Source: Verrucomicrobiaceae bacterium E54
Lineage (GTDB): Bacteria; Verrucomicrobiota; Verrucomicrobiia; Verrucomicrobiales; Akkermansiaceae
Assembly (NCBI GenBank): GCA_022548915.1
Contig: JAKZES010000014.1
Location: 1-64,000 of the forward strand
Direction of reading: 5' to 3'
DNA length: 64,000 nt
A model generated the notes under the pieces. It did no database searches and was not told where the DNA came from. It saw nothing but the letters and a program-made list of their open reading frames with translations. This document shows, piece by piece, positions 26,915 to 60,862 of the stretch (positions are counted from its first letter, which is position 1; each line of letters starts with the position of its first letter). A program made the position numbers and the translations under genes.

Positions 26915-27367
26915 ATGCCTCAATCGCTCTCCAAGCTCTACATCCACCTCGTATTCTCAACGAAGAACCGCGACCGCATCCTGTCGGCCGAGGACGGCCC
27001 GGACCTGCATGCCTACATGGGCGGCACTCTGAACGGCCTGAAATGCATCCCGGTCGAGATCAACACGGAACCCGACCACGCCCACCTCCTCTTTCTTCTA
27101 TCTCGCACGGTTGCCCTGAGTGACGTCGTCGGTGCCGTCAAGAAGAGCGCCACCGAATGGCTTCGCGCCCGAGGCCCGGTTTATCGCGGTTTCCATTGGC
27201 AAAGCGGCTACGGTGCCTTCTCCGTGAGCGAGTCCAACCGGGATTCGGTCCGCGACTACATCCGCAACCAGCGCGAACACCAACGCACCCGGACCTTCCA
27301 GGAAGAATACCGTGCGCTACTGGAGAAATACCGCATCGACTACGACGAGCGCTATGTCTGGGATTGA
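26915..27367 (+). CDS. REP-associated tyrosine transposase (RAYT, IS200/IS605 TnpA-like)
   Basis: 150 aa, full-length for a Y1 HUH single-strand transposase. The HUH motif reads DHAHLL (H55, H57), and the catalytic tyrosine lies in VRDYIRNQREH (Y115, with Q119). The C-terminus EEYRALLEKYRIDYDERYVWD (in parts) matches a common subgroup that lacks TnpB. RAYT proteins cleave and move REP/REPIN palindromes; the repeat array directly upstream is the expected companion. No terminal ends of a complete IS are evident and there is no TnpB gene, so this is better read as a domesticated RAYT than as an IS200/605 element. Confidence 0.9.
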   Translation: MPQSLSKLYIHLVFSTKNRDRILSAEDGPDLHAYMGGTLNGLKCIPVEINTEPDHAHLLFLLSRTVALSDVVGAVKKSATEWLRARGPVYRGFHWQSGYGAFSVSESNRDSVRDYIRNQREHQRTRTFQEEYRALLEKYRIDYDERYVWD

Positions 27368-52941: not shown

Positions 52942-54084
52942 CTACTCCTGATACACCGGGATGTAGCGGTGCGGCGTGCCGAGGATGATGATGGCCATCG
53001 GCGTGGTGTGGGGGTAGGGCTTCTTGGGATTTTCCCACGAGCCGTTGGGCTGCTGCAGGGCGATGAGGGCGTCGCGGATCTGGGGATACCACTTGGCGTA
53101 GTGCTCGTCGCCGGCCTGCACCATGGCCTGGATGGCGTAGTAGTGGGCGTAGTAGTAGTAGCCGATCTCCTCGCGGTTGAAGACCTTGGGGCTGTTCTCG
53201 AGGTAGCGGACCGCGGCCTGCACCCACTCGGTGTCGCGCATGCCGCACAGCTGGGCGGCGTAGGCACCGCCAGCGGTGCAGGCGAGGGTCGAGCCGCCGC
53301 TGCCCTGGTAGCCGAAGCCACCGGTCTTCTCGTTCCAGACCTGGTCCCGCAGGTAGCCGACGACCCGGTCGATGGTCTCGGTCGGGACGAGGACTCCGGC
53401 CTGACGAGCCGAAGCGAGGGAGACGAAGACCATGGCTGTGACCGAGGTGTCCTGACCGCAATCCGGACGCGCATGGTAGCGCCAGCCCCCCAACGGACTC
53501 TGCGCCCGGAGAATGACCTGCACGGCCCGTTCCAGCTGCAACTGGATGCGGGCGTTGTCTTCGTTGTTCGCGGTCATGCCCCAGAGTTCCGAGAGGCACA
53601 GGGTGTAGAGCCCGTGTTCATACATCCCGGGCATGTATCCGGTGGATGACTCCTCGGCCTTCTTGAGCAGGTATTCCTTGGCGCGGTCGAGCGCCGCCCC
53701 GTAGCGGCCGAAGCCGGGGAAGTGGCCCTTCACCATGAAGGCCATGAGCCCGAGCGAAGTGCCGGCCGTGGAGAAGGTGCCGTCTTCCCTGGCCCACGAG
53801 CCGTCCTGCCGCTGCGTGTTGATCAGGAATTGCAGACCCCGCTCGATGGCGAGGTCGGCCGCCTCGGTCAGCTCGGGGGCTTCGGTCCCGGCAGGAGGCT
53901 CGGGGTCGCTTTGAGCGTGCACGGGCGAGAGGAGGGAGAAGCACCCAAATACCCAAGCACCCAAACACCCAAAGAATGACGAAGGACGAAATCCGAATGT
54001 TAGGCGGGACGCACGCCAGAACTCGAACTTGGGAATTTCGGATTTCATTGGGTGTTTGGGTTCTTGGTCATTCGGATTTTTCAT
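52942..54084 (-). CDS. Secreted alpha/alpha-toroid (prenyltransferase/squalene cyclase-like) repeat protein
   Basis: 380 aa from the ATG at 54084, which overlaps the upstream stop (ATGA); no strong Shine-Dalgarno sequence, and another ATG at 54048 lies inside the same repeat. The first about 50 residues, including most of the signal peptide (FFGCLGAWVFGCFSLLSPVHAQ, in parts), are encoded by an inverted-repeat element. The mature part has repeated toroid motifs: LQFLINTQRQDGSWAREDGTF, TSLGLMAFM, DTSVTAMVFVSL, ALIALQQPNGSW. No DxDD cyclase motif is visible, so catalysis is doubtful; similar secreted proteins occur at the end of MoxR/VWA operons. Confidence 0.75.
   Translation of the reverse strand: MKNPNDQEPKHPMKSEIPKFEFWRASRLTFGFRPSSFFGCLGAWVFGCFSLLSPVHAQSDPEPPAGTEAPELTEAADLAIERGLQFLINTQRQDGSWAREDGTFSTAGTSLGLMAFMVKGHFPGFGRYGAALDRAKEYLLKKAEESSTGYMPGMYEHGLYTLCLSELWGMTANNEDNARIQLQLERAVQVILRAQSPLGGWRYHARPDCGQDTSVTAMVFVSLASARQAGVLVPTETIDRVVGYLRDQVWNEKTGGFGYQGSGGSTLACTAGGAYAAQLCGMRDTEWVQAAVRYLENSPKVFNREEIGYYYYAHYYAIQAMVQAGDEHYAKWYPQIRDALIALQQPNGSWENPKKPYPHTTPMAIIILGTPHRYIPVYQE
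53941..54084. repeat. Inverted-repeat element forming the N-terminus of the toroid protein
   Basis: Pairs of exact inverted blocks: cccaaacaccca (53960-53971) with tgggtgtttggg (54049-54060), and GAAATCCGA (53988-53996) with TCGGATTTC (54038-54046). CACCCAAATACCCAAGCACC precedes them as short direct repeats. On the minus strand it is read as the start and signal core of the toroid protein. Confidence 0.85.
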
Positions 54085-57000
54085 TTCGCGACGCGTTCGT
54101 AGTAGTTCTTGAGCGTGGCGCGGTACTCGAGCGGCAGTTCGCGGGCGAAGTTCTGGTTCAAGGCGGCGCGGTTGCGTTCGCCGAGGATCTCCCACTCGGA
54201 TTCCTTGTCGCCGGGCGCCTCACCACTGACGAAATCCGCGACGAAGCCGCTGATCTCCGTCTCATAGAGGTCGTTGGTTTCGGACTCGGTCAGCACATCG
54301 CTGTCGCTGGCCGACGGGGGAGGTGGGGCAGTGTTGAGGATCAGAGCCCATTGGATGATGAAGTGGCGAAGGCCTCGGTCGGCCGCGATCTGGGCCTGGG
54401 TGGCGTCGCCCTTGCGCGAGGACTTGAGGGCCGTCGCCGCGGTCTTGATCTGGTCATGAGCGATCGCCACGGCCGGGTCTCCCATTTCGCCCTCGCGGAA
54501 AGCTTCAAGCTTCGCGGCGAGGCTCTCCTGATCGGGAGCGAGGGCGGCGAGGTACTGGTCCGCCGCACCATGGGTCCGGCGGAGCAGTTGACGGTTCTTG
54601 CTGGCCACGTCGAGCACATCAATCAGCCGGTGAAGTTCGGGCGGCTCGGCATTGGTGACCGGAGTGGAAGGCAGGCCGGTGAGCATTTCGATGATGACGC
54701 CCATCTGGCCTCCGACCGCCCGGAGGGCGCTCTCCGCGGCGGTCATGGCATCGGCGGCATCCTGTCCCGCTTTGATGAGTTGCGCCGCTTCCTTCATCGA
54801 CGAAGCCGGGGCCTGAAAATCGATGCTCAGGTCAAGGTCCTCGAGTCTGTCGCGGGTCTTTTCGTCGAGCCGTTCGAAATCGACCTTGCCGGCGACTTCG
54901 GACAGGACGCGACAGAAAGCGTCCACGTCGGAGGTGAGTGCCTGCTGTTTGGCAGCGGCATCATCCGGCTGCTCTTCACGCAGCTGGCGCTGGCGGAAGG
55001 CGAAGAACTCCGCGTCGGACTGGGCGTTGTTGAGGTATTCGACGATCTCGGCGACGTAGCCGGTCTGGACCGCGATCTCGCCGACCAGCCCCTGAACCTT
55101 GGCCAGCGACTCGACGGCGATCTCCTGGATCTCGGCGGCGTCCTCGGCATCGCCGTCCTCCATCGCCAGCAGGGCGTCCTCGACGTCGGATGCGGCGAAA
55201 ACCAGCGGGGTTCCCACGTCGAGACGGGCGGCGACCAGGTCGAGCGATGGGGCGATGTCGCTGAGGCAGGTGAGCAGGTTGTTCTGGGGAGCAAGCAGCG
55301 CTTCGAGGTCTTGCTCGTCCGCCTCCTGGGTCGCGGCGATCAGGTCGTTCTGCCCGCCGACGACATCGGCCATGCCCGCGGTCGCCTTGGCCACCGATTG
55401 CCGGAAGCCGATCAGGGCCTGCAGCTTGTTGAGCTGGCCGAGCTGGGCCTCGGCGATCTCGCGCGCTTCGGCGAGGGCATTGGCGGCGTCTTCCTGCGGC
55501 TCGAGAGCCTCTTCGCCCTTCTTCGCCTCGAGCTGGGTTGCGGCCGACTTCATCGCCCGGTGGACGGCATCGAGCCGGTTGATCAAGGGAAGGGCCGCCT
55601 TGGGCGGGCCTTCGTCGCCCTGTGCCAACTCGGCGCGGAAAAGCTCCACCTCCTCGATCATGGCGAGCTGGTCGTCGAGCAGGCCCGGCGGGTTCTTTTC
55701 GTCGAGAGCGGCTTCCTCGGTCTGCTCGAGCAGGGCGATCTGCCGGGCCTCGAACTGCTCGAGCACGCCGAGGCGGTTGGTGGCGTCGGAGACATCGGCG
55801 GAAACGCCCAGGGACATCTGTGCCAGTTCCACCGACCAGACTTCAAGAATGGCGGCGAAGTCGTTCAAGGCCGTCAAAGCATCGGTCTGCGCGGTCACCA
55901 CTGCATCCCGATCCTTGTTCTGCAGGGCGGTGAGCGCGTCGGCCATCGAGGCCTCCGCCTGCAGGCGTCGCTCGTCACTGGGTGGCTCCGGCATCAGGGT
56001 GAGATCGAAGAGACCGGCGCGGGGTGCGGGGATCGAGGGGAGGGCGGCCAGCACCAGTTGGTCACGCAGTCGGGACTGCCGTCCGGCAAAGGCCTCGCTC
56101 AGTTCTCCGGCGTTCTTGATCTCGTCGGCCAGCGATGTCTGGGCGGTGATGATGGAATCCACCCGTTCCCGCAGATCGCGCAGCTGGGCATACTGCGAAC
56201 CGCTGCGCATGGTGAATTCCGCCTCCAGCAGGGGACGGATCAGGGGATAGGAGCCCACGGCGGCCTCGATGACCTTGCCGTCGCGGGTGAGCGTGGCCAC
56301 CTTCCGGATCGATTCGCTCAAGGCACCCGTCCGCAGGGCGTGGATGCGGCGGTTCAGGCCCAGCACGTGCAGTGCCTTCTCGTCATAGCGCATGTGGGCA
56401 TCGAGTTGATCCAGAAGTTCATCGGTCCAGGTGGCCACCTCCTCGTGGGCCGCGGCGAGGGCTTCGGCCTGCTCCGGCGTGGCGGTGAGCAGTTGCAGCC
56501 GCAGGCGGGCCAGTTCGTCGGCCAGCATGTTCGTTTCGCGGGCGAAGACCTCACGGGCGGCGTCGATGCCGCGTCGCATGACCAGTTCGCCCAGTTCCCG
56601 CGCGGCCTTGTTGACGGCGGCGATGGAGGGCTGCGGGTCGCGGGTTCCGGTGCCCACCTGGCCGCGCAGCAAGTCGGCGGCTCCGGCGACATCCTCGGTG
56701 GCGATGGTGCGGAGTTCGTCGCGCACCAGCCCGAGCATGTCGCTCTCGACCGCATCGCTGACCTGGTTGGCCGCCAGGTCGTCGAGCAGGGCCTGCACCT
56801 GATCGGAGGTATTGACGAGTTGCTCGCGGACCATTTCCTGCCGGATCGCCTCGAGTTGGCAGGTCGGCAGGTAGGAATCGGCCCGGGGATCGAGCCCGAG
56901 AACCAGCTCATGGGCGGCGCGCTCCTGGCGGTAGAGGTTGCGCACGCGGGTGAGCAGCCGCTCCATCTGCTTGGTGATGCCGGCGAGGTAGTCCTCGCGG

Positions 57001-58493
57001 GAGAGGAAGGTGATGCGGCGGGACTCGGTGCGCGCGCGGTGCGTGCCGTCTTCGCCGGGGTAGTTGTCGGCCACCTCGACGACGAAGGAAACCGAGTCGC
57101 CGATCTGCAGGTCGGGGAGTTCCTCGCGGTAGTCCCAGTCGAGCTTCTGCTCGCCCTCGCCGCTGACGGGCTGGGGGAGCTTGACGACCTTCTCCGGGCG
57201 TCGGTTGACCCGGTAGGTGATGGTCGTGGTGCCGATGCCGTGGTCGTCCTGGGCGCGAACGATGAGCTCCAGCGGGCGGCCGAGCATGGCGTCCAGGTTC
57301 GACTCTGGCGCGACCAGTTCGATCCGGGGCGCCTGGTCCGATGCCACCTGAAGGAAATAGCGTGGGCTGGTGAAGTCGAAGCCGTGCTCATCCTCGATCC
57401 ACGAGAAGCTGTAGCCCCGCGAGGCCGAGGCGGATTCGGAAAGCGAGAGCGTGCGGCCGTCGTCACCGACCGTGAGCGGCAGGTCTTCGGCGCCGTCGCG
57501 ATGGAGCGTGGCCTCGCGGATCGGGGTGTCGAGCGTCAGGTGCCAGCGGACCGCGGTTTCCTCGGGCACGGTGAGGGTGAGTGCTTCGACCGTCTCGGTC
57601 TCGCGATCGATGTAGTCGGGAAAGTCGAGGTCCACCTTGACCTCCGCGAGGCGGGGCGCGGGAATCACCCGCACCTGCCGCCAGTCGCTGCGTGCATCGC
57701 CGGCCCGGACGCGGTAGGTGAAATTTCGCGAGGCCGAGGCGATCTCGTAGGTGCAGCGTCCGTCGATCACCTCGAGCTCGATTTCGCGGGGCCGTCCCTC
57801 GCCGGTTTGGAGGGCGATGAGGGCGCTTTCCGGGACCGAGCCTGAGAGGCCGATCTCGATGCTCGCCGCCGCGCCTTCCTTGAGCACGAGATCACCTTCC
57901 CCGAGCTCGATGCGGGTGTCGGTCGGGTAGTCGATCGCCAGCCACGGCGTGAACATGCGTCCGATTCCGGCGGCGAGGAAGGAACCGTTGAGCACGGCAA
58001 TCACGGCCAGTACCGCGACGACTCCAAGGGCGATCCGCAAGGGGAAGCTGAGATCCCGCAGCGTGACCACCTCCCGTGGGGGAATGTCCTGGGCGGCCTG
58101 TTCGGCGAGGCTTTGGGCCGCCTCCCACATGGCCGGGGAGGTGCCGGGAGCGGCGCCGCTTTTCTCGAACTGCACCGCCGTGACCAGCAGGCTGTCCATG
58201 CCGCCCCGGTGGTCTTCGACCTGCCGTGCGATGCGGGTGGCGTTGAAGCTCCGCAGTCGCGACCAGCCGTGACGCCAGGCCTGGCGCAGTGCGACGCCCA
58301 GCAGGATCACCGCAAGGCCCGCCCGCGCCCAGCCGGGAAGGAAGGTGTAGCGGTCGATGATGATGGCGATCAGGAACAGCGGCACGAACCAGCGGGCGAA
58401 GGCCAGCAGGCCGCCGAGCAAATGCTTGCGCTGCATCCGCATCCAGACGGCGCGAAGGCAGTGGGTCAGGGCACTGGGATTGGATTCGCTCAT
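54081..58493 (-). CDS. Large DUF4175-like membrane protein with long coiled-coil region
   Basis: 1470 aa from the ATG at 58493, which overlaps the previous stop (TGATG). Two N-terminal membrane segments (FARWFVPLFLIAIIIDRYTF and AGLAVILLGVAL, about 28-65) and one at about 155-180 (IALGVVAVLAVIAVLNGSFL). A periplasmic stretch of immunoglobulin-like beta domains follows (about 190-480; VKVDLDFPDYIDRETET, DDHGIGTTTITYRV), then about 900 residues of acidic, Ala/Glu/Leu-rich helix, probably coiled coil. DUF4175-type proteins belong to MoxR-linked operons; a chaperone or envelope-integrity role is inferred. Confidence 0.78.
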   Translation of the reverse strand: MSESNPSALTHCLRAVWMRMQRKHLLGGLLAFARWFVPLFLIAIIIDRYTFLPGWARAGLAVILLGVALRQAWRHGWSRLRSFNATRIARQVEDHRGGMDSLLVTAVQFEKSGAAPGTSPAMWEAAQSLAEQAAQDIPPREVVTLRDLSFPLRIALGVVAVLAVIAVLNGSFLAAGIGRMFTPWLAIDYPTDTRIELGEGDLVLKEGAAASIEIGLSGSVPESALIALQTGEGRPREIELEVIDGRCTYEIASASRNFTYRVRAGDARSDWRQVRVIPAPRLAEVKVDLDFPDYIDRETETVEALTLTVPEETAVRWHLTLDTPIREATLHRDGAEDLPLTVGDDGRTLSLSESASASRGYSFSWIEDEHGFDFTSPRYFLQVASDQAPRIELVAPESNLDAMLGRPLELIVRAQDDHGIGTTTITYRVNRRPEKVVKLPQPVSGEGEQKLDWDYREELPDLQIGDSVSFVVEVADNYPGEDGTHRARTESRRITFLSREDYLAGITKQMERLLTRVRNLYRQERAAHELVLGLDPRADSYLPTCQLEAIRQEMVREQLVNTSDQVQALLDDLAANQVSDAVESDMLGLVRDELRTIATEDVAGAADLLRGQVGTGTRDPQPSIAAVNKAARELGELVMRRGIDAAREVFARETNMLADELARLRLQLLTATPEQAEALAAAHEEVATWTDELLDQLDAHMRYDEKALHVLGLNRRIHALRTGALSESIRKVATLTRDGKVIEAAVGSYPLIRPLLEAEFTMRSGSQYAQLRDLRERVDSIITAQTSLADEIKNAGELSEAFAGRQSRLRDQLVLAALPSIPAPRAGLFDLTLMPEPPSDERRLQAEASMADALTALQNKDRDAVVTAQTDALTALNDFAAILEVWSVELAQMSLGVSADVSDATNRLGVLEQFEARQIALLEQTEEAALDEKNPPGLLDDQLAMIEEVELFRAELAQGDEGPPKAALPLINRLDAVHRAMKSAATQLEAKKGEEALEPQEDAANALAEAREIAEAQLGQLNKLQALIGFRQSVAKATAGMADVVGGQNDLIAATQEADEQDLEALLAPQNNLLTCLSDIAPSLDLVAARLDVGTPLVFAASDVEDALLAMEDGDAEDAAEIQEIAVESLAKVQGLVGEIAVQTGYVAEIVEYLNNAQSDAEFFAFRQRQLREEQPDDAAAKQQALTSDVDAFCRVLSEVAGKVDFERLDEKTRDRLEDLDLSIDFQAPASSMKEAAQLIKAGQDAADAMTAAESALRAVGGQMGVIIEMLTGLPSTPVTNAEPPELHRLIDVLDVASKNRQLLRRTHGAADQYLAALAPDQESLAAKLEAFREGEMGDPAVAIAHDQIKTAATALKSSRKGDATQAQIAADRGLRHFIIQWALILNTAPPPPSASDSDVLTESETNDLYETEISGFVADFVSGEAPGDKESEWEILGERNRAALNQNFARELPLEYRATLKNYYERVAK

Positions 58494-60862
58494 CAGGTCA
58501 GGTCGTGTCGTCGGCGCAGCAGCCATTCCATCCCGAGGAGGCCGACCAGCAGGACGGCCACCAGGGCGTTGTCCCACAGCGGGCGCTCGGAGCGGACCGT
58601 GGTCGTGATCGGTTCGTCATCCACCAGACCGCCGAGCCTTGGCAGGTCGCGCACGCCCAGCACCTGTCCTCCGGTCAGTTGGGCGATGCGTTGCAGGCCT
58701 GGGAGCTGCATGTTGGTGTCGGCCAGTTCCTCGTTCACGACCGCCACCTGGAACTCGGTGGTGTTGGAAACCTCGCGGTCGTCCTCGTTGGCCTCGAGGC
58801 GGTAGCGGCCGGGCACCGGCGCGGTGAAGTAGCCCTCGTAAAGGCCGGGCGAAGTGCGGTCCGGTTGGAGGCGCACGCGTTCGGTCAGGGCGTTGTCGCC
58901 GACGCCCCTGACCGTGATCTCGAAGGACGGCTGGACGACCGATTCGAAGTCCTCGTCGAGCACGTGGGCGTAGAGCCGCGTCTGTTCGCCGTCGCGGTAG
59001 GTCGAGCGGTCCGTCTCGAGGCGGATGCGCTTGTGCTCGCCCATCAGGCGCGAAAGCGTGAGGAACTGGATGCACTGCGACCAGACGCGCCAGTGGTACT
59101 TGTCACCGGTCTTGAAGCGCAGGCGCCAGAGGCGGTCGGTGGCGAGCGACAGGCACTTGCCGGTGCCGTAGCGCTGCCAGGCCACCATCGGGTAGCGCTG
59201 CGAGCCGCCGCTGGCATCGGAAAGCGTGGCCAGCACGGTGGCGCCCGGTTTGGCGCCGATCAGCGGCGGCAGGTGGTCGAGCGGGGCGACGCGACTCCAG
59301 ATGCGATCGTTCTCCTCGGTTGAATTCTCAAGCAGCATGACCATGCTACTACGTCCCTCGGAGGTGAGCACCGGGTAGGTGGATTCCGGCGTGATCTCCC
59401 ACTCGCTGTCCGGATCGAAACGCACCGGCAGCATGGTCTCGACGGGGGTGTCGGCGAAGGAGGCGGGGGTGTGCATCGGCCCGCAGAGCACCAGCAGCGA
59501 GCCGCCGCGGTCGCGGATGAGCTCCTCGAGCAGGCCGAGTTCCTCGGGTGTGAAAAACGCGGCGTCGACGTCGCCGAGGATGACCAGGTCGTACTGGAAC
59601 GCATCCTCGCGCTTCGAGGGGAAGCGCTCGATGTGCTCGGGCGAGTTGCGAGCGAACTCGGGGCCGGCGCACGACGAGATGAAGGTGGTGTCGAGGCGAG
59701 GGTCGCGCTTGAGGATCGCGGAGAGGTAACGGAACTCCCATCGGTTGTTGCCCTCGATGTAGAGCACCTTCACCTTCTCGTTGACCACCCGGATGGTACG
59801 GTCGACGCGGTTGTTCGTCACCGAGACCTCGTCGTCGAAGGGCTCGATCGCCACCTCGATGCGGGCCGCGCCCTTCTCGTAGATGTCGACGTTGAAATCA
59901 ACGTCCTCGAACTGCAGGCCACCCTCGAAGCGCACCCGCTTTTGCGAGACCTGGCGATCATTGAGCCGGACCGTGAGCCTCGCGGTGCGCTTCTCGTAGC
60001 CCTTCGAGAGCAACTGCACCTTGACCGGCACGCGGTCGCCGGAGAAGGCGACCTCCTGCATGACGATGTTGCGGATCGACACGTCGTCGGGTTCCTCGAG
60101 CCCGATGGGCACCGGAAAGACCGGGATCCCGCGCGCGCCGAGATCCCGCAAGACGGCCTCGGTGCGTTGCGAGGAGGCGTTGTCGATGCCGTCGGTGAGC
60201 ATCACGATGCCGGCCGGCGCGGTGGCACCCGACTTGGCCACGCTTTCCAGCGACGCGGCGATGGAGGTGGTCGGCTCCGAGGGCGTGAGTCCGGCGAGAT
60301 CATCCACGGTGACCGTATTGGCGTCGCTGACGATCTGCGGTGAACGGCCGAAGCTGTGGTAGCTGATGTCGAGCGAGTCACCCAGTCCCTCGAAGACCGC
60401 CTGCGCCGAGTCGGTGAGGATGCCGCGGGCGAGGTCCAGCCGCGACGCGGAAAGGATGGCCTGCCGCTGGTCGGCGTCGAGCCCCATCACCACGTGGTCC
60501 GGTTCGGATTCATCCTCGGCGAGCATGCCCAGCGCGGCCGCGGCGTCGGCGACGTCCTCCGAGTTCTTGCGCGGGTCCTGCATCGACATGCTCTCGGAGA
60601 CGTCGATCAGCACCGGCAGGGTGCGCGCCTGGGTGTGGGTCTCGCGGACCACGCGGGTCGGCTCGAAAAGCGAGGCAACGATCAGCGCCAGCGCGATCAG
60701 GCGGGCCGCGCCGAGGAGAATCCTCAGCCAGACCGGCAGCCCCCACGAGCGGCGGTAGAGGAAGAGCGTGAGCAGCACCACCGCGGCGAAGGCCGCGATC
60801 ATGAGCGGTGCGGGCAACGGGCGGGCCCAGAAGAAGTCGTCGAATCCGGCGGCGATGATCAT
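58493..60862 (-). CDS. Membrane protein with VWA and glutamine-amidotransferase-like domains
   Basis: 789 aa. Two N-terminal membrane segments (LMIAAFAAVVLLTLFLY, RLIALALIVASLF). VWA domain (about 80-255): LPVLIDVSESMS gives the D-x-S-x-S metal site, and IVMLTDGIDN comes later. Class I glutamine-amidotransferase-like domain (about 355-600; VLYIEGNNRWEFRYL, LVILGDVDAAFFTPEELGLLEELI in parts, LLVLCGP) without an obvious catalytic Cys triad. A final membrane segment (NALVAVLLVGLLGMEWLLRRR) anchors the C-terminus. Such proteins accompany BatA/DUF58 and presumably work with the MoxR ATPase. 4 bp after the BatA-type gene. Confidence 0.85.
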   Translation of the reverse strand: MIIAAGFDDFFWARPLPAPLMIAAFAAVVLLTLFLYRRSWGLPVWLRILLGAARLIALALIVASLFEPTRVVRETHTQARTLPVLIDVSESMSMQDPRKNSEDVADAAAALGMLAEDESEPDHVVMGLDADQRQAILSASRLDLARGILTDSAQAVFEGLGDSLDISYHSFGRSPQIVSDANTVTVDDLAGLTPSEPTTSIAASLESVAKSGATAPAGIVMLTDGIDNASSQRTEAVLRDLGARGIPVFPVPIGLEEPDDVSIRNIVMQEVAFSGDRVPVKVQLLSKGYEKRTARLTVRLNDRQVSQKRVRFEGGLQFEDVDFNVDIYEKGAARIEVAIEPFDDEVSVTNNRVDRTIRVVNEKVKVLYIEGNNRWEFRYLSAILKRDPRLDTTFISSCAGPEFARNSPEHIERFPSKREDAFQYDLVILGDVDAAFFTPEELGLLEELIRDRGGSLLVLCGPMHTPASFADTPVETMLPVRFDPDSEWEITPESTYPVLTSEGRSSMVMLLENSTEENDRIWSRVAPLDHLPPLIGAKPGATVLATLSDASGGSQRYPMVAWQRYGTGKCLSLATDRLWRLRFKTGDKYHWRVWSQCIQFLTLSRLMGEHKRIRLETDRSTYRDGEQTRLYAHVLDEDFESVVQPSFEITVRGVGDNALTERVRLQPDRTSPGLYEGYFTAPVPGRYRLEANEDDREVSNTTEFQVAVVNEELADTNMQLPGLQRIAQLTGGQVLGVRDLPRLGGLVDDEPITTTVRSERPLWDNALVAVLLVGLLGMEWLLRRRHDLT

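Follow-up and report, generated by a model that had tools for sequence, protein, structure and literature searches.

A palindromic repeat in frame at the start of a verrucomicrobial toroid gene and its probable takeover of the export signal

We analysed a 64,000-nucleotide stretch of the genome of Verrucomicrobiaceae bacterium E54 (the window), in which the gene for a putatively exported toroid protein begins with a palindromic repeat. The features at this locus are as follows.

54081..58577, minus strand: 1498-aa gene upstream of the toroid gene; its TGA overlaps the toroid ATG
52942..54084, minus strand: toroid gene (ATG 54084, stop 52942), of a family predicted to be exported
52942..53913, minus strand: mature alpha/alpha-toroid protein, distantly squalene-cyclase-like
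53914..54084, minus strand: predicted signal peptide of 57 codons, cleavage expected after SPVHA (from charge, hydropathy and c-region comparison)
53935..53976, minus strand: repeat-encoded part of the h-region, FFGCLGAWVFGCFS
53914..53934, minus strand: host-encoded end of the h-region and c-region, LLSPVHA, without similarity to other repeat copies; xxA/Q (slash, cleavage) is conserved in orthologues
53937..54079, minus strand: palindromic repeat element (covariance-model match at 53940-54077, 21-mer scan, alignment, fold z -8.3)
53938..53983: inverted arm 1, T/G-rich on the coding strand, encoding the hydrophobic core
54037..54082: inverted arm 2, A/C-rich on the coding strand, encoding the polar n-region

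The toroid start codon sits within the stop codon of the upstream gene (ATGA, 54081-54084). This overlap is common to the syntenic orthologues in three other genomes (G002, G031 and G033), and its retention there supports ATG 54084 as the start, from which we infer that translation begins. The toroid gene is probably translationally coupled to the preceding 1498-aa gene. A 1289-aa open frame on the plus strand (53976-57845), antisense to the 1498-aa gene, is probably a GC-rich shadow frame.

The repeat lies in frame after about codon 3 of the toroid gene and encodes residues 4 to about 50. It is an imperfect palindrome of ~140 bp that contains the direct units CACCCAAATACCCAAGCACCCAAACACCC and folds at -62.1 kcal/mol, compared with -35.0 +/- 3.3 kcal/mol in dinucleotide shuffles. 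Other copies were found stepwise, two by DNA search and two more by pattern search, and a covariance model built from five repeat copies gives seven clear loci in the genome (E <= 1e-10): C55 (the window), C111, C200, C207, C244, C199 and C9. Judged by open reading frames and stop and start positions, the six non-window copies are all intergenic, and the window copy is the sole clear one within a reading frame in its own genome. At the right end the other copies finish in TTCGTCATTC or a close variant, and the window copy is without a terminal TTCGTCATTC. Weak matches to the model in the same genome (C222, C209, C233, C110 and C243) resemble other palindrome families and were left uncounted. 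Three such sites (L057, L059 and L060, on C209, C110 and C243) belong to other families of similar architecture that lie at gene borders and have text-like units, CCAATGTCCAA and GGAACTTGGAACTT.

As a palindrome of ~100-200 bp that is non-autonomous, has several dispersed copies and is inserted in frame in a protein gene, the element is MITE-like or RPE-like. We rejected an identity with GTAG/CGTC REPs, which are tagged palindromes of 20-40 bp with a RAYT gene, as the element measures ~140-150 bp; a CGTC motif is present near its ends. No transposase that would mobilise the element was found, and copies with divergent flanks have no target-site duplication that is clear by eye. The genome has 17 PF01797 matches, one of them a RAYT-type (Y1_Tnp) transposase gene in the window (26927-27271, plus strand) with no element copy nearby. 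No copy adjoins 16 loci with Y1_Tnp matches or lies within 1.5 kb of the scanned Y1_Tnp genes; a link to RAYT transposases was thus sought and not found. The dispersed copies suggest that the element is or was mobile, and the insert in the toroid gene would have arisen by transposition. In two other genomes (G413 and G000), copies occur in the same tol/exb-type operon with different junctions, which fits independent insertion.

Read on the minus strand from ATG 54084, the element yields MKNPNDQEPKHPMKSEIPKFEFWRASRLTFGFRPSSFFGCLGAWVFGCFS, followed by host LLSPVHAQ. In a sliding scan, window 21-mers match the other copies at 17-19 of 21 positions through GGGTGCTTCTCCC and then drop to background, whereas no 21-mer from the signal-coding DNA of 26 orthologues matches the repeat copies at more than 16 positions. 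This difference indicates that the element encodes the polar, basic n-region and the FFGCLGAWVFGCFS part of the hydrophobic core, and that the host supplies LLSPVHA/Q with the cleavage motif. An earlier note on this DNA had proposed that the element does more than lengthen the n-region and supplies the signal itself, and the scan bears this out for what is, on sequence grounds, a predicted export signal. The same note assigned the whole core to the direct repeats and the adjoining inverted arm; both units and arms are present, but the last two leucines of the core it quoted belong to the host. The right junction is fuzzy by a few codons: TGC TTC TCC is compatible with the repeat and also with native signals, CFSGIMPLVAQ among them.

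The composite peptide has the properties expected of a Sec signal. Net charge before the core is +3, as in a Sec n-region, and the cleavage motif VHA/Q has small residues at -3 and -1, in line with xxA/Q of the orthologues. Core hydrophobicity (KD12 1.92; GES12 2.25) falls within the range of 26 native signals (1.78-2.93 and 1.42-2.45, respectively), near the low end on the Kyte-Doolittle scale yet above the native mean on GES. The n-region is long (~36 residues), which counts against the takeover proposed below. A lipoprotein is unlikely, since position -2 is F in both FFGC and VFGC and hydrophobic residues follow the Cys. Based on these properties, the toroid protein is predicted to be exported by Sec and cleaved.

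To see what the repeat may have replaced, we turn to the orthologues. About 30 of them, from genome collections, carry ordinary signals, mostly of 20-30 residues, and signal peptides are predicted in all those examined. The earlier note would be contradicted by orthologues that have the same signal in genomes free of the repeat. Instead, where the repeat is absent the orthologues carry other signals of the ordinary kind, and the only other orthologue with a repeat-made signal, from the metagenome-assembled genome LJ.19, comes from a genome with the repeat elsewhere. Among the orthologues compared, a core from the window's element is thus used only by the window and LJ.19. In G002 and G031, n-regions are lengthened by a different palindromic segment and the native cores are kept. 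This GACATTCCTGTCG-type segment (L013, 1370-1445, in G002; L014 in G031) follows the shared ATGA start, ahead of the native core, and encodes RGQRHSCRW...MTGMSWPRK or similar; the G002 segment is palindromic with z -6.0, and a search for it as a candidate repeat family, with one exact pattern, hit once per genome. In G006 (L015, 1280-1465), an apparent relic signal frame (VKNLLYAFLAFVGCCLHSLPLAAQVDAG...) directly follows the upstream gene's stop, and a second start with a signal comes after it. The junction at the start of the toroid gene seems to be a repeated insertion target.

Based on this data, we propose that a repeat insertion at the start of the toroid gene took over its export signal, and we consider this very probable overall. 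A non-autonomous palindromic repeat of ~140-150 bp would have entered a Sec-exported toroid gene just behind its first codons, such that translation from the original ATG now passes through the repeat. Its A/C-rich left arm would provide the charged, polar n-region, and its T/G-rich right arm the hydrophobic core, which would now run into the former c-region (PVHA/Q), with the ancestral core lost or overwritten. The earlier note had called this a signal born from a non-coding repeat. The repeat-made core stands, but in a family by all predictions already exported the event is a takeover of an existing signal rather than the birth of export, and the idea has a partial precedent (Delihas 2007).

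The second case comes from the LJ.19 orthologue (L090, JALRFY010000131.1), whose signal reads MKNPKHETLERPRAPDTSNVEAGPASFLGCLAAWVVCHSRTAWLFGCFSLLSPSHAQ. The covariance model matches this site at E 1e-6, although the site was not used to build the model. Four further loci of the LJ.19 genome hold copies of the repeat, which is absent from the three orthologue genomes without this signal that we checked. The LJ.19 palindrome has decayed (z -1.4), yet the reading frame has stayed open and still encodes a hydrophobic core, as selection acting on the protein signal would predict. A chimeric join behind the arrangement in the window is unlikely, as LJ.19 shows one of the same kind. The two signals share similar left (ATGAAAAATCCGAA) and right (GGGTGYTTCTCCCTSCTCTC) edges, and might descend from one ancient insertion lost elsewhere, a history compatible with the proposed function of the repeat. 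We regard such a history as unlikely. In the mature-domain tree the window pairs with another orthologue (L089; 99/99), and a clade of the window and LJ.19 is rejected by an AU test (p-AU 0.0003). In addition, the window copy has kept its strong palindrome, and a single origin would call for many independent losses and regains. Upstream-gene identity gives no sign of a closer link between the two either. The insertions look parallel or exchanged.

The signals of G002 and G031 raise the question of whether the window element too is only a 5' spacer that lengthens the n-region in front of a native core. Both keep such cores behind palindromic, repeat-like insertions, and the window's CFS..P..AQ resembles native CISSTVPLHAQ and CFSGIMPLVAQ. 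We find this improbable since the match to other copies runs through the DNA for FFGCLGAWVFGCFS at values that no native signal reaches, and LLSPVHAQ, which alone is left outside the element, is too short for an h-region. Even less credible is an element that serves as a 5' leader, with translation starting downstream (for example, at a GTG in SPVHA) and a cytosolic product; where repeats coincide with annotated N-termini they are often not translated (PMC3733652), but no downstream start leaves a signal in a family whose examined members all have one, several orthologues have their ATG at the same place over the upstream stop, and the LJ.19 frame has outlived its palindrome.

Takeover of the signal by a repeat may not be confined to the toroid family. 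Two proteins unrelated to it and predicted to be exported have repeat-encoded cores. In the first example, an FGE-sulfatase-domain protein (Pfam; L063, G300) has the core FGFPWVLGCLGISAFLVLC inside a copy of a similar repeat. In the second (L078, G026), the core LLISLVIGICSLVIL comes from a related CCAATGACC palindrome. Homologues of both carry ordinary signals. Additionally, a prepilin-type protein (L080, 1546-2289, G037) has a leader, before the G/FTLVE methylation motif, that is encoded by a GACGAATGACGAG-type palindrome, and in L082 (G033) the n-region is repeat-encoded. Counting LJ.19, sequence comparison suggests no fewer than three further takeovers of this kind among related bacteria; the four proteins were found through searches with the element or its peptide and therefore speak to recurrence, not frequency. 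Other inspected long-frame matches of the phylum profile search (L194, L205, L207, L210 and L217) have no obvious repeat.

Base composition offers a reason for this recurrence. T-rich codons favour hydrophobic residues. When the left arm of a palindrome is A/C-rich, its right arm is T/G-rich whichever strand is read, and translation tends to run from polar to hydrophobic in either orientation. Across 66 translations (11 copies, two orientations, three frames), which are not independent as they are fixed by the palindrome and by shared ancestry, hydrophobicity is higher in the right half in every case, with mean Kyte-Doolittle values of -1.54 for the first half and +0.37 for the second. The best 14-residue window starts past 40% of the length in 64 of the 66, and 25 of the 66 frames are open, compared with 8% after shuffling. 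The base skew of the arms is the likely explanation for repeat-encoded signals, and by the same asymmetry insertions would tend to be tolerated and kept as working signals. More tentatively, palindromes with skewed arms may act across Verrucomicrobiota as ready-made, orientation-independent export signals that repeatedly replace native ones at gene starts, a generalization that could well prove too broad.

Parts of this picture have precedents in other systems. In Yersinia, residues 1-30 of the predicted 41-residue signal of YPO1552 come from the RU-2/YPAL repeat (Delihas 2007, PMC2759123; reviewed in PMC2229807), and signals are predicted as well for related proteins that lack it (PMC2759123). 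This too is a small palindromic mobile repeat that makes part of a predicted signal peptide, but the 168 bp Yersinia repeat belongs to another phylum and is apparently unrelated; beyond that case, the toroid gene has ~30 syntenic orthologues that show the replaced state, the event is seen more than once, and base composition may account for it. Rickettsia palindromic elements (Ogata et al. 2000; in-frame fusions are covered in PMC10969869, a MITE review, and PMC2229807) are likewise palindromes, of ~105-150 bp, in frame in protein genes and also intergenic. Unrelated genes carry them, and neither review presents them as a source of signals, whereas here the insert would be the targeting signal of an exported protein. 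Intragenic GTAG/CGTC REPs, reported in the verrucomicrobium Opitutus terrae, are also dispersed palindromes, mostly intergenic with some at ORF N-termini (PMC3733652), but they are units of 20-40 bp, many thought to be untranslated at N-termini, and the present element is a single palindrome of ~150 bp. Finally, a study of how Enterobacterales gain and lose signals described insertions and deletions of whole signals among orthologues and, using ISEScan, found no transposable elements near such N-termini (PMC5952966); here, in contrast, a repeat is the apparent donor. In the open-access literature, the idea of a repeat-made signal is not new; the toroid gene is a well-supported and recurring form of it, to which the present analysis adds the replacement seen against many orthologues, its recurrence and the likely explanation by arm skew.

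The toroid locus brings together a donor (the dispersed repeat), the ancestral state (the syntenic orthologues) and another lineage that has kept the signal while its palindrome decayed. Signal peptides turn over fast and, to our knowledge, the source of a new one is rarely seen. The locus suggests a simple rule, by which a selfish repeat with skewed arms, reading polar then hydrophobic both ways, can arrive as a working export signal.

A short palindrome clearly of the same type also occurs in another family of the phylum (L192, G150:C67:23548-23637). Its frame has only 88 residues, so it is probably intergenic, and its presence there indicates that the element type is wider than this genus.
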